Below, piece after piece: positions 5,776 through 20,286 of a stretch of 64,000 nt of DNA (position 1 is its first letter; the number at the start of each line of letters is the position of its first letter). This stretch comes from Peptococcaceae bacterium BRH_c8a (GTDB taxonomy: Bacteria > Bacillota > Desulfotomaculia > Desulfotomaculales > Desulfallaceae): assembly GCA_000961575.1 (NCBI GenBank), contig LADP01000039.1:1-64000 (forward strand), in the 5' to 3' direction. The translations under genes were made by a program, and so were the position numbers. Under the pieces are notes generated by a model, which saw only the letters and a program-made list of their open reading frames with translations, was not told the origin of the DNA and searched no databases.

Positions 5776-5946
5776 ATGCTGAACGGCTTTAAACGGCCGG
5801 TCAACGAACTAATTGAACAACAAGGGATAGCACCTTTTTTTATGGCCGGTGGGGCGAAAAATTGCCCGTCACACGCACCTGGCCTGGCGGAAGAAGGCAT
5901 ATTTATGTACGCTGAAACTAGGAGGACGGATGTGATGCTTAGATGA
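5776..5946 (+). CDS. Possible 56-residue upstream ORF coupled to hdrA1
   Basis: The frame is open from 5677 to a TGA at 5944-5946 that overlaps the hdrA1 start as ATGA. The first ATG is at 5776 (MLNGFKRPVNELIEQQ...). It contains the AGGAGG that would serve hdrA1. No good ribosome-binding site is seen before 5776, and I recognise no family. The overlap is what coupled genes usually show, but the ORF may also be chance or a remnant. Confidence 0.3.
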   Translation: MLNGFKRPVNELIEQQGIAPFFMAGGAKNCPSHAPGLAEEGIFMYAETRRTDVMLR

Positions 5947-8900
5947 TTACAAAACCTGATAAGGTTGGAGCCGTTCTGGTGGTTGGCGCAGGTATCGCCG
6001 GTATTCAGGCTTCGCTTGATCTGGCGGAATCAGGATACTATGTATACCTGGTTGAAAAAAGCCCCGCTATTGGCGGCACCATGCCCATGCTGGACAAAAC
6101 ATTCCCCACCAATGACTGCTCCATGTGCATCCTGTCTCCCAAACTGGTTGAGTGTGGGAGACACTTGAATGTCGAGACCATTACTAATTCTGAGGTAGCT
6201 GACATTCAAGGTGAACCTGGTAATTTTAAAGTTACCATTAACACAAAGGCACGTTTGGTTGATCCCGATAAATGTACTGGTTGCGGCTCCTGCGCGGAAG
6301 AATGCCCCGTTAAAGTGGATGACGACTTTAACCAGGGTCTTGACAAGCGTAAGGCCATTTACAAGCAGTACGCCCAGGCTTACCCCAACGCCTACGCCAT
6401 TGATGCTACCAGGTGTTTAAAAGTTAAAAAACCCAAGGCCTGCGGTAAATGTCTGGAAGTGTGCCAGGCAAACGCCATTGACCATCAGATGCAGGACACC
6501 ACTCTGGAAGTGCAAGTTGGTTCCGTCATTCTGTGCCCCGGCTTTGAAAAGTATGACGTCAGCCAGCTGTGGTATTACGGCTACGGTAAGTTGCCCAACG
6601 TTTTAACCAGCCTTGAATTTGAACGTATCCTCAGTGCTTCCGGCCCCTTCGGCGGTCATCTGCAAAGACCGTCCGACGGCAAAGAGCCGAAAAAAATTGC
6701 CTGGCTCCAGTGCGTTGGTTCCAGGAACTGCCGCAATGAACACGGCTATTGTTCTTCGGTTTGCTGCATGTATGCCATTAAGGAAGCCGTTATCGCCAAA
6801 GAGCATACCAAGTACCCCCTGGATACGGCTATTTTCTTCATGGACATGCGCACCTACGGTAAAGATTTTGAAAAATATTATGACCGCGCCCGGGAAGAAA
6901 GTGGCGTGCGGTTCATTCGCTCGCGTGTGTTTGAAGTAACCGATACCTTTGACGGTACCGGCAACTGCCAAATCCGTTATTCCAACGAGGACGGCACTAT
7001 TACCACTGAAGACTTCGACATGGTGGTGCTCTCCCTGGGTCTGGAACCGGCCTCCGGCATGGTAGAACTGGCCGGCAAACTGGGCCTGGAACTGAACAAG
7101 TTTAATTTCTGCGAATCACCCAGCCTTACCGGTGTGGGCACCAGCAAACCCGGTATCTTTGTGGCGGGCGCATTCAGCGGTCCCCGGGATATTCCCGAGA
7201 CTGTCATGCAGGCCAGCGCAGCAGCATCAGATTCGGCAGCAGACCTGGCGGATGTGCGTGGCACCCTGACCAAAGCCAAGGAATACCCGGCTGAAAAAGA
7301 CGTGTCCGGCGAGATTATTCGTACCGGCGTGGTCGTTTGTCACTGCGGCATCAATATCGGCAGTGTAGTCAATGTGCCCGAAGTTGTGGCTTATGCCAAG
7401 ACCCTGCCGGGAGTTGTATTTGCCGATGAAAAACTTTATGCCTGCTCCCAGGACACATCCGCTCAAATCAAGGATGCCATCCAAGAACACGGCTTAAACA
7501 GGGTCGTAGTTGCATCATGCAGCCCGCGGACGCACGAGCCGATGTTCCAGGAAACCCTGAAGGAAGCTGGTTTAAACGCCAACCTGTTTGAAATGACCAA
7601 TATTCGCGACCAGTGTTCTTGGGTACACATGAAGGAACCTGAAAAGGCGACTGCCAAGGCTAAAGACCTGGTTAAAATGGCTGTCTACAAGTCAGCCCTG
7701 TTGGAACCCATTGACGGTGTAACCCTGGATATGAACCATGACGCTTTGGTTATTGGCGGCGGTGTTTCCGGGTTGACTGCAGCCGACAATCTTTCCAAAC
7801 AGGGTTATCAAGTCTACTTGGTGGAAAAATCCGCCGAACTGGGCGGCATTGCCAACCGTTTGCGCTTTGGTATGAAAGGCGAAGACCTGCCTGTTTACAT
7901 CAGTGAGCTGGTGGCCAAGGTTAACGCCGATCCTAACATTAAAGTGTATACCGGCGTAGAGATAACCGACGTGCAAGGCTTTGTGGGTAATTTTGAGACC
8001 ACTCTGTCCAGTGGCGAAGTTATTCCGCACGGTGTGACCATGATCGCCACCGGCGCCCAGGAATACAAGCCTACTGAATACCTGTACGGCCAAAACGAAA
8101 ACGTCATGACGCTGCTGGAACTGGAAAGCCTGCTGGCCGACAAGGACAGCAAAGTAACCGGCGCCAAGAACGTTGTTTTCGTCCAGTGTGTAGGCTCCAG
8201 GGATGCCGAGCGGCCTTATTGCAGTAGAATTTGCTGCACCAAGTCCGTTAAACAAGCGCTTAAAGTTAAAGAACTTAATCCCAATGCCAACGTATTTGTG
8301 CTGTACCGGGATATCAGAACTTACGGTTTCTTCGAAGAGATGTACCGGGAAGCCCGCAACAAGGGCGTTATCTTCATCCGCTACACCGCCGACAACAAAC
8401 CTGTTGTTAAGGCCGGTGCAGACGGCGTGCAAGTGACTGTAACCGACCATGTGCTGGGTATACCTGTTGAAATCAACGCGGATATAGTGGGTCTGGCTGC
8501 CGCCATCGTGGCGGACAAAGATACCAACGGTAAACTTAGCCAGTTCTACAAAGTGCCGCTGAACCAGGAAGGGTTCTTCCTGGAGGCCCACATGAAACTG
8601 CGCCCGGTGGACTTTGGCACCGACGGTGTGTTTATGTGCGGACTAGCCCACGGGCCCAAAAACCTGGAAGAGAACATCTCCCAGGCCAAAGCCGCGGTGG
8701 GACGCGCCTGTACGGTTCTGGCCAAGGAATCGATTTCCGTGGAAGGCAAGAGCGCTTTCGTCAATGAGAGAAAGTGCGCAGGCTGCGGTGATTGCGAAGC
8801 TGTTTGCCCGGCTAAGGCCGTTCAAGTGGATGCAACTAAAAAAGTTGCCGTGGTTAACGAGGCATTATGCAAAGGCTGCGGCGCCTGTGCGTCAACCTGC

Positions 8901-8969
8901 CGCTGCGGAGCAATCAATGTCAAGGGTTGCACGAACCAACAGCTTATAGCCATGATTAAAGCGCTGTAG
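5943..8969 (+). CDS. hdrA: HdrA-type electron-bifurcating flavoprotein, long form (HdrA1)
   Basis: HdrA carries the bifurcating FAD and passes electrons to iron-sulfur centres. This 1008-residue long form has two flavoprotein halves. The first (1-430) has GAGIAGIQASLDLAESG, the TFPTNDCSMC motif and two ferredoxin-like cysteine groups (CTGCGSCAEECP and CGKCLEVC). The second begins with the HdrA N-terminal-type domain (VVCHCGINIGSVVNVPEV, near 463) and a second Rossmann motif (GGGVSGLTAADNL, near 603), and ends with two [4Fe-4S] motifs (CAGCGDCEAVCP, CKGCGACASTC). ATG 5943 follows an in-frame stop; AGGAGG lies 17 bases upstream. It starts the ten-gene cluster ending in metF. Confidence 0.93.
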   Translation: MITKPDKVGAVLVVGAGIAGIQASLDLAESGYYVYLVEKSPAIGGTMPMLDKTFPTNDCSMCILSPKLVECGRHLNVETITNSEVADIQGEPGNFKVTINTKARLVDPDKCTGCGSCAEECPVKVDDDFNQGLDKRKAIYKQYAQAYPNAYAIDATRCLKVKKPKACGKCLEVCQANAIDHQMQDTTLEVQVGSVILCPGFEKYDVSQLWYYGYGKLPNVLTSLEFERILSASGPFGGHLQRPSDGKEPKKIAWLQCVGSRNCRNEHGYCSSVCCMYAIKEAVIAKEHTKYPLDTAIFFMDMRTYGKDFEKYYDRAREESGVRFIRSRVFEVTDTFDGTGNCQIRYSNEDGTITTEDFDMVVLSLGLEPASGMVELAGKLGLELNKFNFCESPSLTGVGTSKPGIFVAGAFSGPRDIPETVMQASAAASDSAADLADVRGTLTKAKEYPAEKDVSGEIIRTGVVVCHCGINIGSVVNVPEVVAYAKTLPGVVFADEKLYACSQDTSAQIKDAIQEHGLNRVVVASCSPRTHEPMFQETLKEAGLNANLFEMTNIRDQCSWVHMKEPEKATAKAKDLVKMAVYKSALLEPIDGVTLDMNHDALVIGGGVSGLTAADNLSKQGYQVYLVEKSAELGGIANRLRFGMKGEDLPVYISELVAKVNADPNIKVYTGVEITDVQGFVGNFETTLSSGEVIPHGVTMIATGAQEYKPTEYLYGQNENVMTLLELESLLADKDSKVTGAKNVVFVQCVGSRDAERPYCSRICCTKSVKQALKVKELNPNANVFVLYRDIRTYGFFEEMYREARNKGVIFIRYTADNKPVVKAGADGVQVTVTDHVLGIPVEINADIVGLAAAIVADKDTNGKLSQFYKVPLNQEGFFLEAHMKLRPVDFGTDGVFMCGLAHGPKNLEENISQAKAAVGRACTVLAKESISVEGKSAFVNERKCAGCGDCEAVCPAKAVQVDATKKVAVVNEALCKGCGACASTCRCGAINVKGCTNQQLIAMIKAL

Positions 8970-8990
8970 ATGGGGGAGGGAAACGGAGAC

Positions 8991-9446
8991 ATGGAACGCG
9001 ATCCCAAAATTGTAGCATTCTTGTGCAACTGGTGCAGTTATGCCGGCGCCGACCTGGCCGGTATCGGACGTATCCAGTACCCGCCCAACATCCGGGTGGT
9101 GCGCATACCTTGTACCGGTAGGATTAACCCGCTGTTCATAATCAGCGCGTTGCGTCACGGAGCTGACGGCGTGCTGACCTCCGGGTGACACCCTGGCGAC
9201 TGCCACTATGTTAGTGGCAACCTGGTGGCCCGTAGGAAATTCGCTCTGCTTAAAGACCTTTTGGAATACATCGGCGTGGACGAAGGCCGGGTAAACTTCT
9301 CTTGGGTATCGGCAGCCGAGGGCGGCCGTTTCGCAGAGTTGGTCAAGGACGTTACGGCCAGAGTTAAGGAAGTTGGGCCTAATAAAGGAATAGCGCAAGA
9401 AGGCCTAAATGAAAGTGAATCGGGGTGTTGCGGATGCAAGCAATAG
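8991..9446 (+). CDS. mvhD: MvhD/FlxD-like [2Fe-2S] subunit, selenocysteine candidate 1
   Basis: MvhD-type proteins carry a [2Fe-2S] cluster and deliver electrons to HdrA. The frame holds one TGA at 9186-9188 and continues without shift to TAG 9446. Read as selenocysteine, it gives SG-U-HPGDCHY, exactly where relatives have a Cys before HxGDCHY; the paralog at 18180 has GCMEGDCHF there. The N-terminal [13 protein letters not shown] motif has both cysteines. A hairpin follows at SECIS distance. ATG 8991 has GGGGGAGGGA about ten bases upstream; ATG 8970 directly after hdrA1 is an alternative. The 3' end overlaps the next gene. Standard gene callers would split or truncate it. Confidence 0.88.
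9201..9219 (+). promoter_or_regulatory. Candidate bacterial SECIS hairpin of mvhD1
   Basis: TGCCACT-ATGTT-AGTGGCA forms a perfect 7-bp stem with a five-base loop. It begins 13 bases after the TGA at 9186-9188, and the loop starts 20 bases after it. A G lies in the apical loop, as expected for bacterial SECIS elements (general model recalled, not computed). It lies inside the coding sequence, as bacterial SECIS elements do. Confidence 0.72.
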
Positions 9447-10390
9447 CAGCTCAAGTAAAAGAGGCCGCGAAGAAACTACTGGAAGACAAAAAAGTTGACC
9501 TGGTGGTTGGTTTCGCCGAAGGCAGCTTGCCGCTGCGCGGTACACCGCTGTTCGCCCGTACACCCGAAGAAGCTGACCAGTTAACCTGGAACAGGGGCTG
9601 TGAAAACAACCTGGCCAACTTCCTGCGCAAGCGGGAAGGTAAAGTAGCCGTTGTGGCCAAAGGTTGTGACGTCCGTTCAATCGTGGCCCTAACCAAGGAA
9701 AACCAGATTGACCGTGACAACCTTTATATCATTGGTGTACCCTGTGACGGCATGATCGACCGTAAAAAAATCGGTAAACTACTGGGTGGTAAGGAAGTTC
9801 TGGCCGTTGAAGACCAGGGCGACACCATTGTGCTAAAAGGCAATGGTTTCTCTGAAACCGCCAAGGTGGCAGACTTGCTGCATAATTCCTGCATTGACTG
9901 CCGTTATGGTAACCCCGTGGTTTACGATGCGTTAATCGGTGAACTGATGCCGGAGAAGGCTGAAGAAGATTTCGCCGAAATTAAGGAATTCGAAGCCAAG
10001 ACTACGGCCGAACGCCGCGCTTTCCTGGCGGAGGAGTTCAGCAAATGTATCAGGTGTTATGCCTGCCGCAATGCCTGCCCGATGTGCTATTGTACGGAGT
10101 GTTTCGTAGACTGCTCCCAACCGGAGTGGATTGGCAAGAGTGCGGCGGACGTCCAAGATAACATTCTATTCCAGGCAGTTAGGGTATTCCACGGCGCCGG
10201 TCGCTGTGCCGATTGCGGCGCTTGCGAAAGGGCTTGCCCAATGGGCATCAACCTGCGTCTGCTGACCCGTAAGCTGGTTAAGGATGTCAAGGTACTATTC
10301 AACGCCGAAGCCGGTGTCAGCATGGACGACAAGGCAGCCCTGGCAACATTTACAGCTGACGACCCAGAACCTTTCTTGGTGAAGGAGTGA
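9434..10390 (+). CDS. Iron-sulfur protein, F420-hydrogenase-beta/FlxB-like
   Basis: The N-terminal 170 residues resemble the FrhB/CoB-type oxidoreductase fold (AVVAKGCDVRSIVAL, IGVPCDGMID, SCIDCRYGNP). The C-terminal third carries HdrC-like [4Fe-4S] ligands: CIRCYACRNACPMCYC near residue 204 and CADCGACERACP near 258. I infer an electron carrier between the NAD(P)H subunit and HdrA1, like FlxB in the FlxABCD-HdrABC complex. Three start codons are possible; ATG 9434 is preferred over GTG 9425. It overlaps mvhD1 by 13 bases, which suggests translational coupling. The FlxB name is by context and domain only. Confidence 0.75.
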   Translation: MQAIAAQVKEAAKKLLEDKKVDLVVGFAEGSLPLRGTPLFARTPEEADQLTWNRGCENNLANFLRKREGKVAVVAKGCDVRSIVALTKENQIDRDNLYIIGVPCDGMIDRKKIGKLLGGKEVLAVEDQGDTIVLKGNGFSETAKVADLLHNSCIDCRYGNPVVYDALIGELMPEKAEEDFAEIKEFEAKTTAERRAFLAEEFSKCIRCYACRNACPMCYCTECFVDCSQPEWIGKSAADVQDNILFQAVRVFHGAGRCADCGACERACPMGINLRLLTRKLVKDVKVLFNAEAGVSMDDKAALATFTADDPEPFLVKE

Positions 10391-10400
10391 GGTGAAACTG

Positions 10401-11420
10401 ATGATCGTAAGCAAAAAAGATATACCCAACCTCCTGGATAAAATGATTGCCGAATACGATGTTTTAGCGCCTGTTAAGAAGGATAATTTTACGGTTTTCA
10501 AGCCCATCGCCTCTGGAGCTGATGCAGTACTGGGCGAGGGAAACACCAAGCTTCCAGCCAAAGAATTGTTCTTCCCGCAGTCGGAAAAACTGTTCAGTTA
10601 CAGTGTCACCGAAGAGGGCGCCAAGCTTGATGCTCCGATGGACGACAAGAAAAAAGTGTTGTTTGGTGTGCGCCCCTGCGACGCCAGGAGTCTCAAACTG
10701 CTGGATAACGTTTTCGACAATGATAAATTCCAGGATCCCTATTACCTGACCAGGCGTGCGAATACAGTTATGGTAGGTATTGGATGCAACATGCCGTCCA
10801 GCACCTGCTTTTGCACCTCGGTCAATAGCGGCCCCTTTGATACTAGCGGGCTGGACATTTTGCTGGTGGATACTGGTGACGCCTACGTAGTCGAATTGGT
10901 TACCGATAAAGGCAAGGCCTTGGCTGACCAGGCCGGTCTGGCTGCGGCGTCAGATGCTGACAAGACAGCCGCTGCGGCAGCCAAGGAAGCCGCCGTGGTA
11001 ACCTGCCAGGTGAACACTGACGGTCTAAAAGCCAAGCTGGATGTTAATTTTTACGACCCCATCTGGGAAAAGATCCATGAAAAATGCTTGGGCTGCGGAG
11101 CCTGCACCTACCTGTGCCCCACCTGCCACTGTTTTGACATCGTGGACGACGCGGTGGATTGCGCTGGTTGCCGGGTACGTAACTGGGATTCCTGTGCCTT
11201 CCCGCTGTTCACCCTGCATGGTTCCGGGCACAACCCGCGGACCAGTAACAAAGAGCGCTACCGTAACCGGATTATGCACAAGTTCAAGTATTTCGTTGAT
11301 AACTTTAACGAAATAGGTTGTGTCGGCTGCGGCCGCTGCATTAAAAACTGCCCCGTTAATATGGATATCCGAGTGGTACTGGAGAACATTCGGGGTTCGG
11401 AAGCGAGGTTGGATAGTTGA
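10401..11420 (+). CDS. 4Fe-4S dicluster protein, AsrA/HydB/FlxC-like
   Basis: This protein resembles sulfhydrogenase beta and anaerobic sulfite reductase A subunits. It has the FGVRPCDARSLKLLD segment near residue 90, IGCNMPSSTCFCTS near 126, and two C-terminal cysteine groups, CLGCGACTYLCPTCHC and CVGCGRCIKNCP. Such proteins relay electrons next to an NAD(P)H:FAD subunit, and that subunit follows here with a TGATG overlap. ATG 10401 has GAGGTGA five bases upstream; GTG 10392 is an alternative. An alanine-rich segment (about residues 170-200) looks like a surface linker. Likely partner set: FlxA-like, FlxB-like, MvhD1, HdrA1. Confidence 0.78.
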   Translation: MIVSKKDIPNLLDKMIAEYDVLAPVKKDNFTVFKPIASGADAVLGEGNTKLPAKELFFPQSEKLFSYSVTEEGAKLDAPMDDKKKVLFGVRPCDARSLKLLDNVFDNDKFQDPYYLTRRANTVMVGIGCNMPSSTCFCTSVNSGPFDTSGLDILLVDTGDAYVVELVTDKGKALADQAGLAAASDADKTAAAAAKEAAVVTCQVNTDGLKAKLDVNFYDPIWEKIHEKCLGCGACTYLCPTCHCFDIVDDAVDCAGCRVRNWDSCAFPLFTLHGSGHNPRTSNKERYRNRIMHKFKYFVDNFNEIGCVGCGRCIKNCPVNMDIRVVLENIRGSEARLDS

Positions 11421-12259
11421 TGAAAAATCCATATCTGCCGCTACCAATGAAGTTGGTTAAAAACTTCACCGAAACAGAAGATAAGCTAATCCATACCTTT
11501 ACCCTGCAGTTCCTCAGCGAGGAAGATGAAAAGAGTTTTCCGTACATGCCGGGGCAATTTGCCGAGCTGTGTGTATTCGGAAAAGGCGAAGCACCTTTTG
11601 GTATCGCCTCATCTCCCACCGAACCAGGGTTCCTGAAGTTCTCAGTGGCCAAGGTGGGTACTGTATCCACCGCCCTGCACATGCTGGAAGAAGGAAGCAT
11701 CGTGGGTGTTCGCGGCCCACTGGGCAATTCCTATCCGGTCGAGCAGTTTAAGGGTAAAGACGTGGTTATTATCGGTGGTGGTTTTGCGTTTACCACGCTG
11801 CGTTCACTGGCCACTTACATGATGCACCCCGACCGCCGCAGCGACTACGGTAAAATTACCGTTATTTACGGCGCCCGCAACCCCGGCCTGCTGCTTTACA
11901 AAGACGAACTGGCAGCCTGGGAAGCCAGCCCGGACATCGACCTGATTACCACCGTGGACAGAGAAGCAGAAGGCTGGAACGGCAGGGTCGGCTTTATCCC
12001 TTCAGTCACAGGGGAAGTGGCACCCAGCGCGTCAAACGCTCACGCCATTATCTGCGGCCCGCCGGTAATGATTAAGTTCACCATGCCGGTGCTTGAAAAG
12101 CTCGGGTTTACACCGGAAACCACCATTATGTCGCTGGAAAACCGGATGAAGTGTGGTATTGGTATGTGCGGCCGGTGCAACGTGGGTGGCAAGTACGTCT
12201 GCAAGGACGGCCCCGTTTTCACCAGAGCGCAACTTAACGAACTGCCTAACGAATACTAA
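11420..12259 (+). CDS. FAD/NAD(P)H-binding oxidoreductase subunit, AsrB/HydG/FlxA-like
   Basis: This is a ferredoxin-NADP reductase-type protein of 279 residues. The N-terminal flavin barrel has PGQFAELCVFG near residue 42. The nucleotide-binding half has VVIIGGGFAFTTLRSL near 115. The C-terminal CGIGMCGRCNVGGKYVC motif binds a [2Fe-2S] cluster, as in PyrK and AsrB. It probably oxidises NAD(P)H and feeds electrons through the neighbouring iron-sulfur proteins to HdrA1. The ATG overlaps the previous stop (TGATG at 11418-11422). It is the last gene before a repeat-bearing gap of 186 bases. Confidence 0.85.
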   Translation: MKNPYLPLPMKLVKNFTETEDKLIHTFTLQFLSEEDEKSFPYMPGQFAELCVFGKGEAPFGIASSPTEPGFLKFSVAKVGTVSTALHMLEEGSIVGVRGPLGNSYPVEQFKGKDVVIIGGGFAFTTLRSLATYMMHPDRRSDYGKITVIYGARNPGLLLYKDELAAWEASPDIDLITTVDREAEGWNGRVGFIPSVTGEVAPSASNAHAIICGPPVMIKFTMPVLEKLGFTPETTIMSLENRMKCGIGMCGRCNVGGKYVCKDGPVFTRAQLNELPNEY

Positions 12260-12445: not shown

Positions 12446-13681
12446 ATGGAAGTTATTAAAGCTGCCGATCTTAATCCCCAATTTAGGGACGAAGTGGCCG
12501 GCCTGCTAAAAAACATTGATTTCACCAACTGCCTGGCCTGCGGCATGTGTACCGCCGGGTGCCCGTACTCAGACGTACACGAAAACCAGGATCCGCGCAA
12601 GTTCTTGCGTAAAATCCTGCTGGGCATGAAAGAAGAAGTTTTCAAGGATCCATATATCTGGTACTGCACCATGTGCGAGCGCTGCACCATCGAGTGCCCC
12701 ATGAACATTAACATGGCGGTGCTGGTACGCAACTTGCGCGGTACCTGGGACAAGGACAAAATTCCCGGCTATCTGCAGACCATTGCCCACGAGCACATTG
12801 AGTCCGGCAACCAGATGAACGTTGACCAGGTGGATTATGAAGAGACTCTGGAGTGGATCGAAGAAGAACTGCAGGAAGAACTGGGCGACCCCGATTTCAA
12901 GATCCCGCTGAATAAGAAGGGTGCCAAGTACTTCTACGGTTTCAACGCCCGGGATATCAAGTACTACCCCAACGAACTGCAGGCCACAATAAAGATTTTC
13001 CATGTGGCCGGTATCGATTATACCATCAGCACCAAGCGTTGGGACGCCACCAACATTTCTCTGTTCACCGGCCAGAACGATGACTTTCAGGCTATCTCCA
13101 TGCCAGTATGGCAGGAAATGGTGGATCTGGAGTGCGAAGAAATGATCGTCACCGAGTGTGGTCACGCCTTCCGTTCCATGAAGTGGGGTTACCGGACCTT
13201 CTGGAAAGGTAAGCAGTTTCCCATTCGTCACATCCTGGAACTGCTTAACGAGCTGGTTAAAGAAGGCAAGCTAAAACTTGATCCCGACGCTATCACTGAA
13301 GTAGTCACCTACCATGACCCCTGTAACACTGCCCGTAAAGAAGGCGTTTACGAAGCACCTAGGGAACTGATCAATAGCTTCATCAAAAACTTTGTGGACA
13401 TGAACCCCAACGGTAAAATGAACTACTGCTGCGGCGCCGGCGGTGGCGGTATGGCTATGCCTGAATACAATGATATCCGTAAAGCCAAAGGCAAGCGGAA
13501 AGTTGACCAGGTGCTGGCCACCGAGGCAGAAATTGTCATCGTGCCCTGCCACAACTGCATTGACCAGTTTAACGACCTGAACAAGTGGTACGAAGAGAAA
13601 GCCAAGTCCAAAAACATACACATGTGCTCACTGATGGAAAGAGCGCTGATTATGCCCGAGAAAGAAGAAGCGGCAGAGTAG
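12446..13681 (+). CDS. HdrD/HdrBC-like iron-sulfur protein
   Basis: The 411-residue protein joins an HdrC-like part and an HdrB-like part. The N-terminus has two [4Fe-4S] motifs, CLACGMCTAGCP near residue 30 and CTMCERCTIECP near 72. The C-terminus has one full CCG domain: YHDPC near 292, NYCCGAGGGG near 328, VPCHNC near 370. The region where HdrD or DsrK would have a first CCG domain keeps only VTECGH, so only one non-cubane cluster is likely. RBS GGAGGGAGG lies about ten bases before ATG 12446. It sits between the two HdrA modules and could connect them or receive their electrons. Confidence 0.83.
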   Translation: MEVIKAADLNPQFRDEVAGLLKNIDFTNCLACGMCTAGCPYSDVHENQDPRKFLRKILLGMKEEVFKDPYIWYCTMCERCTIECPMNINMAVLVRNLRGTWDKDKIPGYLQTIAHEHIESGNQMNVDQVDYEETLEWIEEELQEELGDPDFKIPLNKKGAKYFYGFNARDIKYYPNELQATIKIFHVAGIDYTISTKRWDATNISLFTGQNDDFQAISMPVWQEMVDLECEEMIVTECGHAFRSMKWGYRTFWKGKQFPIRHILELLNELVKEGKLKLDPDAITEVVTYHDPCNTARKEGVYEAPRELINSFIKNFVDMNPNGKMNYCCGAGGGGMAMPEYNDIRKAKGKRKVDQVLATEAEIVIVPCHNCIDQFNDLNKWYEEKAKSKNIHMCSLMERALIMPEKEEAAE

Positions 13682-13753
13682 CAATATAGATTATCCAATA
13701 GATGTATTGCTTTGTTTTCATGGACTCAAAACCGAGAGGACGGATGTGATGTC

Positions 13754-16700
13754 ATGGGCAAAGATAAAGTAGGATCGGTGCTGGTAGTAGGTGCTGGTAT
13801 TTCTGGCATCCAGGCATCCCTTGACCTTGCAGAGTCCGGCTATTACGTTTATCTCGTGGAGCAATCACCGGCTATTGGCGGCACTATGCCGCGGCTGGAT
13901 AAGACTTTCCCCACCAATGATTGCTCCATGTGTATCCTTTCTCCCAAACTGGTTGAGTGCGGGAGACACTTGAACGTTGAGAAACACATGCTTACCGATA
14001 TAGTTGACGTTCAGGGCGAGCCGGGTAATTTCAAGGTTAAACTGCGTAAAAAAGCACGTTTCATCGACCTGGAAAAATGCACCGGATGCGGCGAATGTAA
14101 AGACGCCTGTCCGGTGGAGGTACCAAGCCAGTTCGATGCCGACCTGGGCCAAAGGAAAGCCATTTACAAAATGTACGCCCAGGCCATGCCTGCTGCATAT
14201 TCGATCGAAAAAACCGGTACATCACCATGTAAAGCTGCCTGCCCCGCCGGCGTTAACGCCCAGGGCTACGTGCAGCTTATTAAAGACGGTAAATTCATTG
14301 AATCGTGGCAATTAATATACAAAGACAACCCGCTGCCGGCAATTTGCGGCCGGGTTTGCACGCACCCTTGCGAAACCGCCTGTCACCGTAAAAGCGTGGA
14401 CACTCCGGTTGGGATTAGGGAACTAAAACGCGTAGCTGCGGAAGTAGCCTACCGTGATCTGGACGGACTGCCGCTGCCGGAAATTGCTCCTGCAAACGGC
14501 ATCAAAGTAGCTGTAATTGGTTCCGGCCCCGCCGGCCTTTCCACCGCCTACCAGTTGGCCAAGGGCGGTTACTCGGTAACCATTCTTGAGGCCCTGCCGG
14601 TAACCGGTGGGATGCTCCGGGTGGGCATTCCCGAGTACCGCCTGCCCAAGAGCATTGTCGAGATGGAAATTGGTTTGCTGGAAAGAATGGGCGTGGAAAT
14701 TAAGACCAACACCCCGCTGGGCCCACAGCTTACCATTGATGACTTGATGAAACAAGGCTACAACGCTGTGTTCCTGGGCATCGGCGCGCACAAGGGAGTA
14801 TCCCTTAATGTGCCGGGCGAGGACCTGGATGGCGTAATCCCGGGTGTCGATTTCCTGCGCCGGGTTAACATGGGCGAAAAAATCGCGCTGGGTAAAAGGG
14901 TAGCCGTAATCGGCGGTGGTAACACCGCGATGGACGCCGCCCGTACCGCGCTGCGCTGCGGCGCCCAGGAAGTGACTATTGTCTACCGTCGTTCCGAGGC
15001 TGAAATAACAGCCGCCGAAGAAGAAATTCATGAGGCCAAGGAAGAGAATATAGTATTCCAAATGATGACCAGTCCTGTCGCCATGCACGGTGACGGTGGC
15101 AAAGTCGCTAAACTGGAATGCATTCAAAATGAACTGGGCGAACCCGACGAAAGCGGTCGCCGCCGGCCGGTTGCTGTGGCTGGCAGCGAGTTTGCTATTG
15201 ACGTGGACAACATCATTGTTGCCATCGGCCAAGCCGTTGACGTATCTGGTTTGGGCGGAGCTGTGGAACTGAGCAGGCGTAATACCATCGTCGTGGACGG
15301 AGCAACAATGGCTACCAACGTACCCGGTGTATTTGCCGCCGGTGATGTGGTAACCGGTCCGGCCACCGTAGTGGACGCCATCGGTACCGGTAAAAAAGCC
15401 GCCGCCTCCATAGATAAGTATTGCCGGGGTGAGGAAGCAACCATTTGTTTCAACTGGGCCACCAAAGAATCAGTGGTGGACTTTCCTAAAAATTCACCGG
15501 GTAATAGGGTTGAAACCCCACGTTTTGAAGGCAGCTTTGTCGAGCCTGCCAAACGGGTCGCCGACTTTGCCGAAGTAGCACTGGGCATCAGTGAAGAAGC
15601 CGCTCGCCAAGAAGCTCAGCGGTGTCTGAACTGCGCTGTGTGCTCCGAGTGTGGCGAGTGTGTCAAGACCTGCCTGCGTGAAGCAATCAACCACGACATG
15701 CGCGATGAGGAACTGGAGCTGGAAGTGGGCGCCATCATCCTCAGTTCAGGGGCCGAGATATGCGATCCCACCGACCTGTTCTACTATGGCTACCGCAAGA
15801 ACCCCAACGTGGTTACCAGTATTGAGTTCGAGCGTATCTTGAGCGCTTCCGGACCGTATGGCGGTCACCTGGTCAGGCCTTATGACGGCAAAGAGCCGAA
15901 AAAAGTGGCCTGGATCCAGTGCGTGGGTTCCCGCAACAAGCGCATCGAGCATAATTACTGCTCGTCAGTATGTTGTATGTACGCCATCAAAGAAGCGGTT
16001 ATCGCCAAAGAACATAGTGCCCAGCCGCTGGACACCACCATCTTCATGATGGACATGCGTTCCTACGGCAAGGATTTTGAAAAATACTACGAACGGGCCA
16101 AGAACGAACACGGCGTCAATTTTGTCCGCTCCCGGATCTTTGAAGTGATGGATGCACCAGGTGAGGATAAGAATCCCACCATCCGTTACTCCAACGAGGA
16201 CGGTTCCATTACTACCGAAGAATTCGATATGGTGGTTCTTTCGGTAGGCTTCCAGGCCGGTGCCAAAGCCAAGGAACTGGGACAAATTATGGACGTTGAA
16301 CTTAACCGGTACGGATTTGCCGAGCTGGCCCCGATGACGGGCGTTAACACATCTCGCGAAGGTGTTTACGTAGCCGGTACCTTCTCCGGACCCAAGGATA
16401 TTCCGGAAACAGTAATGCAGGCCAGCGCTGCGGCATCAGCAGCTGAAAGTTTACTTGGTGATGTGCGTGGAACCCTGGTCAAAGAGATAGTATTCCCGCC
16501 GGAGCGTGACGTTGCGGGAGAGGAACCAAGGATTGGCGTATTTGTTTGTAACTGCGGTATTAACATCGGTGGCGTGGTTAAAGTGCCCGAAGTGGTAGAA
16601 ACGGCCAAAAAGCTGCCGGGCGTGGTCTATGCCGGAGAGTATCTATATGTTTGCTCCCAGGATAGCCAGGCGACCATGAAGGATATTATTAACGAACATC

Positions 16701-18178
16701 AACTCAACCGGGTGGTAGTGGCCTCCTGCAGTCCCCGGACGCACAAGCCGCTATTCCAGGAAACGCTGAAGGAAGCCGGTCTGAACCGGTACCTGTTTGA
16801 GATGGCCAATATTCGCGACCAGTGCTCCTGGGTCCACATGCACGAACCGGATAAGGCCACCGCCAAAGCCAAAGACCTGGTCACCATGACCACGGCCAAG
16901 TCAAGACTGTTGCAGCAGATTAAGCAGGGTTCGGTCGGTGTGACCAAGTCCGCCCTGGTTATCGGCGGCGGCATCACCGGCATGACCAATGCCGTAAGTC
17001 TGGCTGAGCAGGGTTACGCAGTACATCTGGTAGAAAAGTCAGCCGAACTGGGTGGACTGGCCAGGCGATTGCAAAAAGGCTTCAAGGGTGAGGATATCCA
17101 GGCCCTGGTTGCCGATTTAGCAGCCAAGGTTAACGCCAACCCGTTAATCAGCGTCTACACCGGCGTGGAAATCAAGGACGTTACCGGCTATGTGGGCAAT
17201 TTTAACACCGAGCTGGCCGACGGCCGGGAAATCAAACACGGCGTAACGATCATTGCCATCGGCGGCCGTGAATACAAACCTAACGAGTACCTGTACGGTG
17301 AAAGCGATCGGGTGATGACGCACCTGGAACTGGACGAGGCCATCGCCGCGGGGCGGATTAAGGACGCCAAGAACATCGTATTAATTAACTGCGTTGGTTC
17401 CCGCGAACCTGAAAGGCCTTACTGCAGCAGGGTGTGCTGCACCAAATCCATCACCCTGGCTCTGAAGATGAAGGAAAAGAACCCCAATACCAATATATTT
17501 ATCCTGTACCGGGACATCCGCACCTACGGCTTCCTGGAAGAGCTTTACGAGGAAGCCCGGGCCAAGGGAATCATTTTCGTCCGTTACGCCCCCGATAGTA
17601 AACCAGTGGTTGAAAAGGACGGCGACACGGTCAAGGTAACGGTTACAGATCATGTACTGGGGCAGCCCATTGTCATTGAGGCTGATGTGGTCGGTTTAGC
17701 TGCGGCCATCATGGCGCCGGAAGACAACGTCAAGCTGAACCGGCTGTTCAAGGTACCTTTGAATGCCGACGGGTTCTTCCTGGAAGCACACATGAAACTT
17801 CGTCCGGTGGACTCTGCCGCCGAAGGTGTATTCATGGCCGGCATCGCCCACGGACCTAAAAACATGGAAGAGAACATCGCCCAGGCCAAAGCTGCCGCCG
17901 GGCGCGCGGCCACCTTCCTCAGTAAGGACCGCCTGGAATCACACGGTGTGGTCGCGGTTGTACAGCCCGACAAGTGCGCGGCATGTCTTACCTGCGTCCG
18001 CTTGTGTCCATTTGGCGCACCACGCGTGAATAATTACGCGGCTGAAATTGAGTCGGTTCTCTGCCAGGGCTGCGGCACCTGTGCCGGTGAATGCCCCAAC
18101 AAGGCCATTACCCTGCAGGGATACAATGACGATATGTATATGAACATGATGGATGACTTATTCAAGGAGGTGCGTTAG
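13754..18178 (+). CDS. hdrA: Giant HdrA with inserted GltD/NfnB-like NAD(P)H module (HdrA2)
   Basis: The 1474-residue protein has the two-halved layout of HdrA1 (GAGISGIQASLDLAESG, TFPTNDCSMC, CTGCGECKDACP; second half from VFVCNCGINIGGVVKVPEV; C-terminal CAACLTCVRLCP and CQGCGTCAGECP). From about residue 152 to 620 it carries an insert absent from HdrA1 and HdrA3. The insert has the GltD signature: CKAACPAGVN and CGRVCTHPCETAC, then KVAVIGSGPAGLSTAYQLA, RVAVIGGGNTAMDAARTA and GVFAAGDVVTGP. This would add its own FAD and NAD(P)H site. ATG 13754 matches the HdrA1 start; ATG 13712 would add 14 residues. RBS-like GAGAGGA lies upstream. Confidence 0.92.
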   Translation: MGKDKVGSVLVVGAGISGIQASLDLAESGYYVYLVEQSPAIGGTMPRLDKTFPTNDCSMCILSPKLVECGRHLNVEKHMLTDIVDVQGEPGNFKVKLRKKARFIDLEKCTGCGECKDACPVEVPSQFDADLGQRKAIYKMYAQAMPAAYSIEKTGTSPCKAACPAGVNAQGYVQLIKDGKFIESWQLIYKDNPLPAICGRVCTHPCETACHRKSVDTPVGIRELKRVAAEVAYRDLDGLPLPEIAPANGIKVAVIGSGPAGLSTAYQLAKGGYSVTILEALPVTGGMLRVGIPEYRLPKSIVEMEIGLLERMGVEIKTNTPLGPQLTIDDLMKQGYNAVFLGIGAHKGVSLNVPGEDLDGVIPGVDFLRRVNMGEKIALGKRVAVIGGGNTAMDAARTALRCGAQEVTIVYRRSEAEITAAEEEIHEAKEENIVFQMMTSPVAMHGDGGKVAKLECIQNELGEPDESGRRRPVAVAGSEFAIDVDNIIVAIGQAVDVSGLGGAVELSRRNTIVVDGATMATNVPGVFAAGDVVTGPATVVDAIGTGKKAAASIDKYCRGEEATICFNWATKESVVDFPKNSPGNRVETPRFEGSFVEPAKRVADFAEVALGISEEAARQEAQRCLNCAVCSECGECVKTCLREAINHDMRDEELELEVGAIILSSGAEICDPTDLFYYGYRKNPNVVTSIEFERILSASGPYGGHLVRPYDGKEPKKVAWIQCVGSRNKRIEHNYCSSVCCMYAIKEAVIAKEHSAQPLDTTIFMMDMRSYGKDFEKYYERAKNEHGVNFVRSRIFEVMDAPGEDKNPTIRYSNEDGSITTEEFDMVVLSVGFQAGAKAKELGQIMDVELNRYGFAELAPMTGVNTSREGVYVAGTFSGPKDIPETVMQASAAASAAESLLGDVRGTLVKEIVFPPERDVAGEEPRIGVFVCNCGINIGGVVKVPEVVETAKKLPGVVYAGEYLYVCSQDSQATMKDIINEHQLNRVVVASCSPRTHKPLFQETLKEAGLNRYLFEMANIRDQCSWVHMHEPDKATAKAKDLVTMTTAKSRLLQQIKQGSVGVTKSALVIGGGITGMTNAVSLAEQGYAVHLVEKSAELGGLARRLQKGFKGEDIQALVADLAAKVNANPLISVYTGVEIKDVTGYVGNFNTELADGREIKHGVTIIAIGGREYKPNEYLYGESDRVMTHLELDEAIAAGRIKDAKNIVLINCVGSREPERPYCSRVCCTKSITLALKMKEKNPNTNIFILYRDIRTYGFLEELYEEARAKGIIFVRYAPDSKPVVEKDGDTVKVTVTDHVLGQPIVIEADVVGLAAAIMAPEDNVKLNRLFKVPLNADGFFLEAHMKLRPVDSAAEGVFMAGIAHGPKNMEENIAQAKAAAGRAATFLSKDRLESHGVVAVVQPDKCAACLTCVRLCPFGAPRVNNYAAEIESVLCQGCGTCAGECPNKAITLQGYNDDMYMNMMDDLFKEVR

Positions 18179-18179
18179 A

Positions 18180-18620
18180 GTGGCCGAATTTCAACCTAAA
18201 ATAGTGGCCTTTTGCTGCCACTACTGAGCATACTCGGCTGCGGACCTGGCAGGTTCGATGCGCTTACAGTATGCCTCTAACGTGAGAATAGTTGAAATGC
18301 CTTGCTCGGGCACCATTGATCACCGGGTTATCCTACACGCTTTCGAAGACGGAGCTGACGGCGTATTTGTGGCCGGGTGCATGGAAGGCGACTGTCACTT
18401 CCTAAAGGGTAACATTCGGGGCAAAAAACGTGTCCAGTACGTCAAACAAATTCTTGATGAAATAGGTTTTGGCAGCGAACGGGTTGAATTTTTCAACCTT
18501 TCCGCGGCCCAAGGCCAGCGCTTTGCCGAAATCGTCAAGGAGATGACCGAACGGATTATGCAACTGGGCCCCAATCCATTAACTTCTAATCCTGATGGGA
18601 AAGAAGGTGGGATAGCATGA
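18180..18620 (+). CDS. mvhD: MvhD-like [2Fe-2S] subunit, selenocysteine candidate 2
   Basis: GTG 18180 lies one base after the hdrA2 stop and has AAGGAGG at 18164-18170. The frame meets TGA at 18225-18227 and then runs open to 18620. Read through, it gives FCCHY-U-AYSAADLAG, where mvhD1 has [14 protein letters not shown], so the TGA replaces the second Cys of the CxxC motif. The other cluster cysteines (MPCSG, AGCMEGDCHF) are present. A hairpin follows at SECIS distance. It probably hands electrons between HdrA2 and MetVF; it overlaps metV by four bases. A start at ATG 18258, as gene callers would pick, would delete the CxxC motif. Confidence 0.88.
18241..18257 (+). promoter_or_regulatory. 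Candidate bacterial SECIS hairpin of mvhD2
   Basis: CGGACCT-GGC-AGGTTCG forms a 7-bp stem (one G-U pair) with a GGC loop. It begins 14 bases after TGA 18225-18227 and the loop starts 21 bases after it, nearly the same spacing as in mvhD1. The loop starts with G, as the bacterial SECIS model asks. Confidence 0.65.
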
Positions 18621-19288
18621 TTATCGCCCAACAAAAGCCTGTCAAGGATATCGCTGCCATGATCAGTGACTGCAACAAGGTACTGTTCGTGGGCTGTGCC
18701 GGGTGTGTTACCGTATGTCTGGCCGGCGGCGAAAAGGAAACTGAAATATTGGCCTCCAGCTTGCGCATCATGCGCAAACTGGAGCATAAGCCCATTGAAA
18801 CAGTCACCTTTACTGCCACCAGACAGTGCGATCCCGAATATATTGTCGCTCTGGATAACATGGTGCAAGAAGTTGACGCCATTGTGTCCCTGGCCTGCGG
18901 CGTAGGGGTTCAATACCTGGCCGAACGGTTCAAGGACAAGTGGGTGGTACCCGCCCTGGACACCAAGTTTATCGGCGGTGCTACTGAACACGGTGTCTGG
19001 GAGGAAAAATGCGGGCTGTGCGGTGACTGTGTACTGCATCTCACCGGTGGTATTTGCCCCATTATCCGCTGTTCCAAGAGCATTCTAAACGGCCCCTGCG
19101 GCGGTTCCCAGTATGGCAAATGCGAAATATCCAAGGACGTGGACTGTGCCTGGCAACTTATCTATGACCGTATGACCGCCCTTGGCAAACTTGACAAATT
19201 GATGGAAATACAGCCGCCCAAAGACTGGACCAAGTCCCGCGATGGCGGCCCCCGCAGGGCAGTCCGGGAGGATGTGATGATCGGTTGA
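18617..19288 (+). CDS. metV: MetV, zinc/iron-sulfur partner of methylene-THF reductase
   Basis: MetV is the accessory subunit of acetogen-type methylene-THF reductase, where it links MetF to an electron-donating complex. The 223-residue protein has GCAGCVTVCLAGGEKE near residue 24 and a C-terminal cysteine-rich part: CGLCGDCVLHLTGGICPI, CSKSILNGPCGGSQYGKC and DVDCAW. The ATG overlaps the mvhD2 stop by four bases and its stop overlaps the metF start by four bases. This tight packing supports a MvhD2-MetV-MetF complex. Confidence 0.92.
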   Translation: MIIAQQKPVKDIAAMISDCNKVLFVGCAGCVTVCLAGGEKETEILASSLRIMRKLEHKPIETVTFTATRQCDPEYIVALDNMVQEVDAIVSLACGVGVQYLAERFKDKWVVPALDTKFIGGATEHGVWEEKCGLCGDCVLHLTGGICPIIRCSKSILNGPCGGSQYGKCEISKDVDCAWQLIYDRMTALGKLDKLMEIQPPKDWTKSRDGGPRRAVREDVMIG

Positions 19289-20211
19289 AAACTGAGAGCA
19301 AATTACAACAAATTCTTGATAACGGCCAATTTGGTGTAACTGCCGAAATAGGCCCGCCCAAGCACTCATCGTCCGAGGGTATGCGCCACCACGCTCACAT
19401 GCTGAAAGAGCACGTGGATGCCACCAATATTACCGACAACCAGACTGCCATTGTCCGTCTGTCCAGTATCGCCGCCGGCGTACACATTCTGGATAGCGGC
19501 ATTGAACCCATTGTGCAAATGACCTGCCGCGACCGTAACCGAATCGCCATGCAGTCAGATTTAATGGGCGCTTACAGTCTGGGCATGCGCAACGTCCTTT
19601 GCCTGTCGGGTGACCACCAGCAGTTTGGTAACCACCCTACGTCAAAGAACGTTTACGATGTTGACTCCATGCAGCTTATTCAATTGCTGCGCCGGATGCG
19701 TGACGAGAAGAAGTTTTTCTCGGGTGAAGAAATTAAAGAGCACGAACCCCGGTTCTTCATCGGAGCGGTGGCCAACCCCTTCGCGGATCCCTTCGAATAC
19801 AGGGTAGCCCGGTTGGAAAAGAAGGTCGAGGCAGGCGCAGAATTTATTCAGACCCAGTGCATTTTCGATATGGAACGCTTCGAGCGCTTCATGGAGATGG
19901 TCCGGGCGCGCGGTATTGATGAGCGGGTCCACATTCTAGCCGGCGTCACGCCCCTAAAAGGCTGGCGGGCAGCTAAATATATCCAGAACAACGTCAGTGG
20001 CATGATTGTACCGGAAGAATTGGTTCAACGCCTGAAGAGCGCCGAAGACCCCAAAAAAGAAGGCGTCAATATTTGTGTTGAACAAATTAAGTACATCAAG
20101 GAAAACATCAAAGGTGTACACGGCGTGCACATCATGGCCATCGCCTGGGAAGAAGTAGTACCTGAAATAGTAGAAAGATGTGGTCTGTACCCCAGACCCA
20201 AAATAAACTAA
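19285..20211 (+). CDS. metF: Methylenetetrahydrofolate reductase
   Basis: MetF reduces 5,10-methylene-THF to 5-methyl-THF, the substrate of AcsE. The 308-residue flavin TIM barrel shows TAEIGPPKHSS near residue 19 with the catalytic Glu, ATNITDNQTA near 47, LCLSGDHQQFG near 110 and GVTPLKG near 218. The start is TTG 19285, overlapping the metV stop (TTGA), with GGGAGG about 13 bases upstream. There is no C-terminal regulatory domain, as usual in bacteria. In the reverse direction the enzyme would serve methyl oxidation during acetate breakdown. A terminator follows. Confidence 0.93.
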   Translation: MKTESKLQQILDNGQFGVTAEIGPPKHSSSEGMRHHAHMLKEHVDATNITDNQTAIVRLSSIAAGVHILDSGIEPIVQMTCRDRNRIAMQSDLMGAYSLGMRNVLCLSGDHQQFGNHPTSKNVYDVDSMQLIQLLRRMRDEKKFFSGEEIKEHEPRFFIGAVANPFADPFEYRVARLEKKVEAGAEFIQTQCIFDMERFERFMEMVRARGIDERVHILAGVTPLKGWRAAKYIQNNVSGMIVPEELVQRLKSAEDPKKEGVNICVEQIKYIKENIKGVHGVHIMAIAWEEVVPEIVERCGLYPRPKIN

Positions 20212-20241: not shown

Positions 20242-20275
20242 AAGGGCTATGCCTCCTGCCGGAGGGATAGCCCTT
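20242..20275 (+). terminator. Terminator after metF
   Basis: AAGGGCTATGCCTCC, loop TGCC, then GGAGGGATAGCCCTT, followed by TCTTTATT. It ends the hdrA1-metF transcript. Confidence 0.85.
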
Positions 20276-20286
20276 CTTTATTAGTT

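Follow-up and report, generated by a model that had tools for sequence, protein, structure and literature searches.

The window we analyzed, a stretch of 64,000 nucleotides from Peptococcaceae bacterium BRH_c8a (contig LADP01000039.1), contains a single cluster of co-directional genes on the forward strand, which runs from hdrA1 (5943) to metF (20211) and has two mvhD genes inside it. The first of these, mvhD1 (8970..9446; 158 amino acids), follows the HdrA-like gene of its presumed partner, hdrA1 (5943..8969; NCBIfam HdrA2-type match). Downstream are genes for a 321-amino-acid 4Fe-4S protein whose domain match is weakly FrhB/FdhB-like (9425..10390), for an Fe-S protein and an FAD/NAD(P)H module that by domain and family matches resemble the sulfhydrogenase beta subunit (ShyB/HydB/AsrA; 10392..11420) and gamma subunit (HydG/ShyC/AsrB; 11417..12259), and for an HdrC-HdrB-like fused protein with Fer4 and CCG domains (12446..13681). 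The second gene, mvhD2 (18180..18620; 146 amino acids), lies directly behind hdrA2 (13712..18178), whose product is its presumed partner and, according to domain and family matches, is an HdrL-like HdrA into which a GltD-like NAD(P)H/FAD module of about 500 amino acids is inserted within the N-terminal region (amino acids ~162-675). It is followed by metV (18617..19288; PF12225, methylene-THF reductase C-terminal) and metF (19285..20211; PF02219, MTHFR), and a consensus scan places a terminator-like hairpin 3' of metF (20261..20276).

Translated with TGA as selenocysteine (Sec, U), the reading frame of mvhD2 extends from GTG 18180 to a TGA stop at 18618-18620 and has an in-frame TGA at 18225-18227. 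The TGA-encoded residue of the product (...VAFCCHYUAYSAADLAG...AGCMEGDCH) is residue 16 and replaces the second Cys of the N-terminal CxxC, a codon that is TGC or TGT in the Cys orthologs; the motif in the second half of the protein, GCMEGDC, has Cys throughout. Both points agree with the earlier note on this DNA. That note also ascribed the opposite arrangement to MvhD1, and this holds in so far as the CNWC of MvhD1 is intact and its Sec (TGA at 9186..9188, giving ...SGUHPGDCH) is in the second half. However, the replaced residue is the Cys before HPGDC, at the position equivalent to C67 of MvhD2; the Cys within GDC is retained in both proteins.

MvhD2 belongs to the FlpD family (PF02662), which it matches with E=1.8e-50 and 170.5 bits against a gathering score of 22.3, over positions 1-123, that is, all 123. 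It also matches in sequence the MvhD/ElpC subunits of solved Hdr complexes. An AlphaFold2 model, for which the orthologs found in this analysis were the input, has a pLDDT of 90, and Foldseek aligns this model to the MvhD of the Methanothermococcus Hdr-hydrogenase complex (5odc_D) with E 1.5e-18 and 1.5 A.

The genome (4.17 Mb in 48 contigs) encodes SelA and, adjacent to it, a full-length SelB. It also has two equally scoring genes for tRNA-Sec (anticodon tca; G000:C16:16166 and C36:133206) and two selD genes with one in-frame TGA each (C46:21690 and C6:49874). A genome without sel genes would have spoken against selenocysteine, as the earlier note pointed out; selA, selB, selC, and selD are all present, and the in-frame UGA codons of mvhD1 and mvhD2 are therefore most likely decoded as Sec. 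Our main reading, to which we give a probability of about 0.93, is that MvhD2 is an MvhD-type electron carrier with Sec as residue 16. The occurrence of two tRNA-Sec and two selD genes in one assembly is an observation in its own right; the contamination estimate for the assembly is 3.67%.

An alternative explanation is that the UGA in mvhD2 is a stop codon or a sequencing error, and that the gene is broken or is translated from ATG 18258, which opens a reading frame of 120 amino acids. However, this ATG has no ribosome-binding site comparable to the Shine-Dalgarno sequence AAGGAGG (18164..18170) found at the usual distance upstream of GTG 18180, and a protein that begins there would lose the CxxC region, which all orthologs, including every Cys ortholog, have kept. 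Furthermore, about 20 distinct mvhD2 genes of related genomes have the TGA at exactly this codon, and the protein sequence before and after it is strictly conserved. It thus does not appear that translation starts at ATG 18258, an objection that the earlier note had raised as possible, and we regard the whole explanation as highly improbable. The same ATG is a hazard for annotation: a gene caller without UGA read-through yields the 120-amino-acid protein with the CxxC missing.

ATG 18258 is located immediately 3' of a hairpin (CGGACCU-GGC-AGGUUCG, 7 bp, with GG in the apical loop; 18241..18257) that starts 15-16 nt downstream of the UGA. All seven pairs can form in 13 of 17 distinct Sec genes and six pairs in the remaining four, whereas none of 70 Cys orthologs has all seven. 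In the Sec genes, no six-codon window of 103 shows stronger synonymous conservation than that of the hairpin (identity 0.94, against a mean of 0.48 elsewhere), whereas its codons vary freely in the Cys orthologs. Most of these Sec genes are related to one another, and the codons that flank the hairpin provide the control for relatedness. The corresponding hairpin of mvhD1 (UGCCACUA-UGU-UAGUGGCA, 8 bp; 9201..9219) has all eight pairs in 33 of 37 Sec genes and in 2 of 113 Cys genes. The earlier note had suggested folding the region behind the mvhD2 UGA. A hairpin conserved in Sec genes is indeed present, but single-sequence folds have energies only modestly better than those of shuffled sequences (z -1.66 and -2.01), and the case for a SECIS therefore rests on the comparison between genes and not on energy. 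Scanning the window with Rfam at gathering thresholds returned one tRNA only and no SECIS family. Judged by its conservation, the mvhD2 hairpin is likely a SECIS, and it would aid SelB and tRNA-Sec in decoding UGA 18225.

Among the domains collected, Sec is restricted to the two sites seen in the window. When TGA is read through, 171 distinct FlpD domains divide into 92 with five Cys, 41 with Sec at GUxxGDC only, 34 with Sec at CxxU only, and 4 that are divergent; part of the CxxU set was collected by a TGA pattern search, before which there were 154 domains, 38 of them GUxxGDC and 22 CxxU. The CxxU pattern matched 13 times in 398 Bacillota genomes, and the reversed control pattern did not match at all. 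An in-frame TGA is present in 75 of the 171 domains and is confined to two columns of 131, with none at any other column. The alignment and codon table that the earlier note called for thus place TGA in MvhD homologs at these sites exclusively, a placement that is well beyond chance. No bacterial domain with Sec at both sites was found among the 171. Five columns are invariantly Cys or Sec (13, 16, 42, 67, and 72 in MvhD2 numbering).

In many relatives the two genes occur in one cluster in the order hdrA-mvhD ... hdrA-mvhD-metV-metF. As in the window, a GUxxGDC gene and a CxxU gene are found about 7-9 kb apart in eight further loci: L096, L099 (Desulfallas sp. Bu1-1), L100 (Desulfoscipio geothermicus DSM 3669), L101 (Desulfotruncus arcticus), L103 (Desulfotruncus alcoholivorax), L104, L109, and L116. 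The claim of the earlier note that two paralogs in one operon carry Sec at two different conserved Cys positions of the same fold is supported by the sel genes, the conserved hairpins, the Cys orthologs, and the conservation of the pair. The split between MvhD1 and MvhD2 is real and common to related species; both sites were known earlier in the family.

Other members of the family occur elsewhere in the genome, in which 4 of 7 FlpD domains have an in-frame TGA. A third Sec-MvhD, of the GUHPGDC type, lies just to the right of the window (G000:C15:65430-65798, L002). A longer, fused type of 260-290 amino acids has Sec at the CxxU site in the form CHWU (G000:C20:127204-127575, L005 and L071; also L176 and L181-L188). 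The mvhD2 hairpin is absent from this fused type (C20:127204, L176, and L181-L188), which has a different hairpin downstream.

An ortholog of mvhD2 is located between hdrA and metV-metF in the window and in most of 80 loci. Loci with the order hdrA-mvhD2-metV-metF span Moorella, Thermincola, Thermodesulfobacteriota, Nitrospirota, and others, and the majority encode Cys. In the phylogeny of 89 MvhD2 proteins, which was calculated from a short alignment of 130 columns and does not polarize gain versus loss, the Sec state needs four changes, and the CxxU sequences are consistent with a single gain, in Desulfotomaculia, plus one reversion to Cys within a single genus (G009-G014). Sec at GUxxGDC appears twice among the MvhD2 orthologs (L149, 2986, and L152, 10001), in distant lineages and within the hdrA-mvhD-metVF order. 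With CxxU in Desulfotomaculia and GUxxGDC in these two loci, a single orthologous group thus includes proteins with Sec at one site and proteins with Sec at the other. In the genus with the return to Cys, MvhD2 has the motif CCRYC and MvhD1 still has Sec. One of its genomes (G013; L055 and L056) encodes two MvhD2 proteins at a distance of about 7 kb, one with Sec and the other with Cys.

This history bears on whether the choice of site matters. Sec might have the same effect at either site, and the split in the operon would then be an accident of history. The pattern on the MvhD2 tree, with a single gain and a single return for CxxU and with Sec at GUxxGDC in two lineages far from each other, fits such neutrality, as do some clusters of the same type in which only MvhD1 has Sec (L105 and L106). 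However, Sec at both sites occurs in 0 of 171 domains, and each paralog holds its own site across the family. We consider neutrality a serious contender, at slightly less than even odds. A more speculative idea, which we judge unlikely, is that Sec affects the MvhD cluster differently at each of the two sites and thereby provides the HdrA partner on the NAD(P)H module side and the one on the MetFV side with separate potentials. If true, the choice of the Sec site would be nature's way of adjusting the [2Fe-2S] potentials of a single electron-transfer system.

Selenoproteins of the FrhD/MvhD type have been catalogued since 2005-2006 (PMC1794560; PMC1242214). Sec-FrhD proteins of Clostridia and Deltaproteobacteria were described with several copies per genome, two in Desulfotomaculum reducens and eight in Syntrophobacter fumaroxidans, beside Sec-HdrA (Zhang et al. 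2006, PMC1794560). The multiple Sec copies resemble the situation in the window; the passages on these proteins leave the site of the replaced Cys in the individual copies unstated. In a 2026 review, MvhD/VhuD (PF02662) is entered with the motif CxxU and a count of 2 Sec per protein, and multiple Sec are noted for archaeal FrhD/VhuD (PMC13188914). The archaeal PDB chain 9sfi_K (CYQXGYGAADLAG...AGXKPNEC) has a non-standard residue X at both sites found here, which, in view of this review and of the motif, we infer to be Sec. In view of the listing and the chain, the lack of a precedent, which the earlier note claimed for two paralogs of one operon, is not supported as far as the occurrence of Sec at two positions of the fold is concerned. 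The archaeal VhuD/FrhD/MvhD selenoproteins (PF02662; NCBIfam NF045873, VhuD) share the fold, the family, and the two sites with the proteins discussed here; however, they have both Sec sites in one polypeptide, whereas here there is one per paralog, and their partner is a NiFeSe hydrogenase instead of MetFV or an NAD(P)H module. In the literature searched, mostly without subscription journals, we found neither a description of the one-site-per-paralog split in bacteria nor a paper on a change of Sec site within one orthologous group such as MvhD2. These two points are what remains new in the observation.

The HdrABC-MvhD-MetVF complex is a type described for Moorella thermoacetica (PMC5736913; PMC6085437). 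The Moorella locus has the same hdrA-mvhD-metV-metF order and an ortholog of MvhD2 (PMC6085437), but that ortholog (L129) has only Cys where the window has Sec. We propose that the window encodes a methylene-THF reductase complex made up of HdrA, MvhD, MetV, and MetF, in which MvhD2, as a selenoprotein, takes the role of the [2Fe-2S] electron-transfer subunit MvhD. Electrons would pass via MvhD2 between HdrA2, with its NAD(P)H module, and MetFV. The partners and the direction are inferred, and we consider the assignment of the partners probable. MvhD1 would similarly serve HdrA1 and the sulfhydrogenase-like NAD(P)H-oxidizing module encoded at 9425-12259.

The Sec most likely replaces a ligand or near-ligand of the cluster and alters its redox behavior or stability; residues 16 and 67 of MvhD2 are likely ligands of iron. 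A [2Fe-2S] cluster needs four ligands. The family has five invariant Cys, so one Cys may be a non-ligand. If residue 16 is not a ligand, the inserted Sec could instead be a redox-active selenol that reacts with a partner such as HdrA or MetV. CxxU has a function of this kind in thiol:disulfide proteins and is a thiol-redox motif of many selenoproteins (PMC1794560; PMC13188914). However, the solved MvhD/ElpC homologs are electron carriers whose single [2Fe-2S] cluster lies close to the bifurcating FAD of HdrA (PMC12350162), and we give the selenol explanation about one chance in four. The hdrA-mvhD-metVF locus offers a natural series of MvhD2 proteins with Sec at either site or with Cys only, in which the effect of selenium on the [2Fe-2S] carrier of bifurcating complexes would be measurable.

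The arrangement of hdrA2 and mvhD2 also resembles that of HdrL in Desulfobacterium autotrophicum, an HdrA to which an NAD(P)H domain of the glutamate-synthase type is fused and which is encoded next to mvhD (PMC2702500). That genome has four Sec-mvhD genes (PMC2702500); in contrast to HdrL, the partner HdrA in the window is without Sec. In three of the related loci (L104, L116, and L117), the gene in the place of hdrA2 is a better match to the shorter hdrA1, as if the inserted module were absent.
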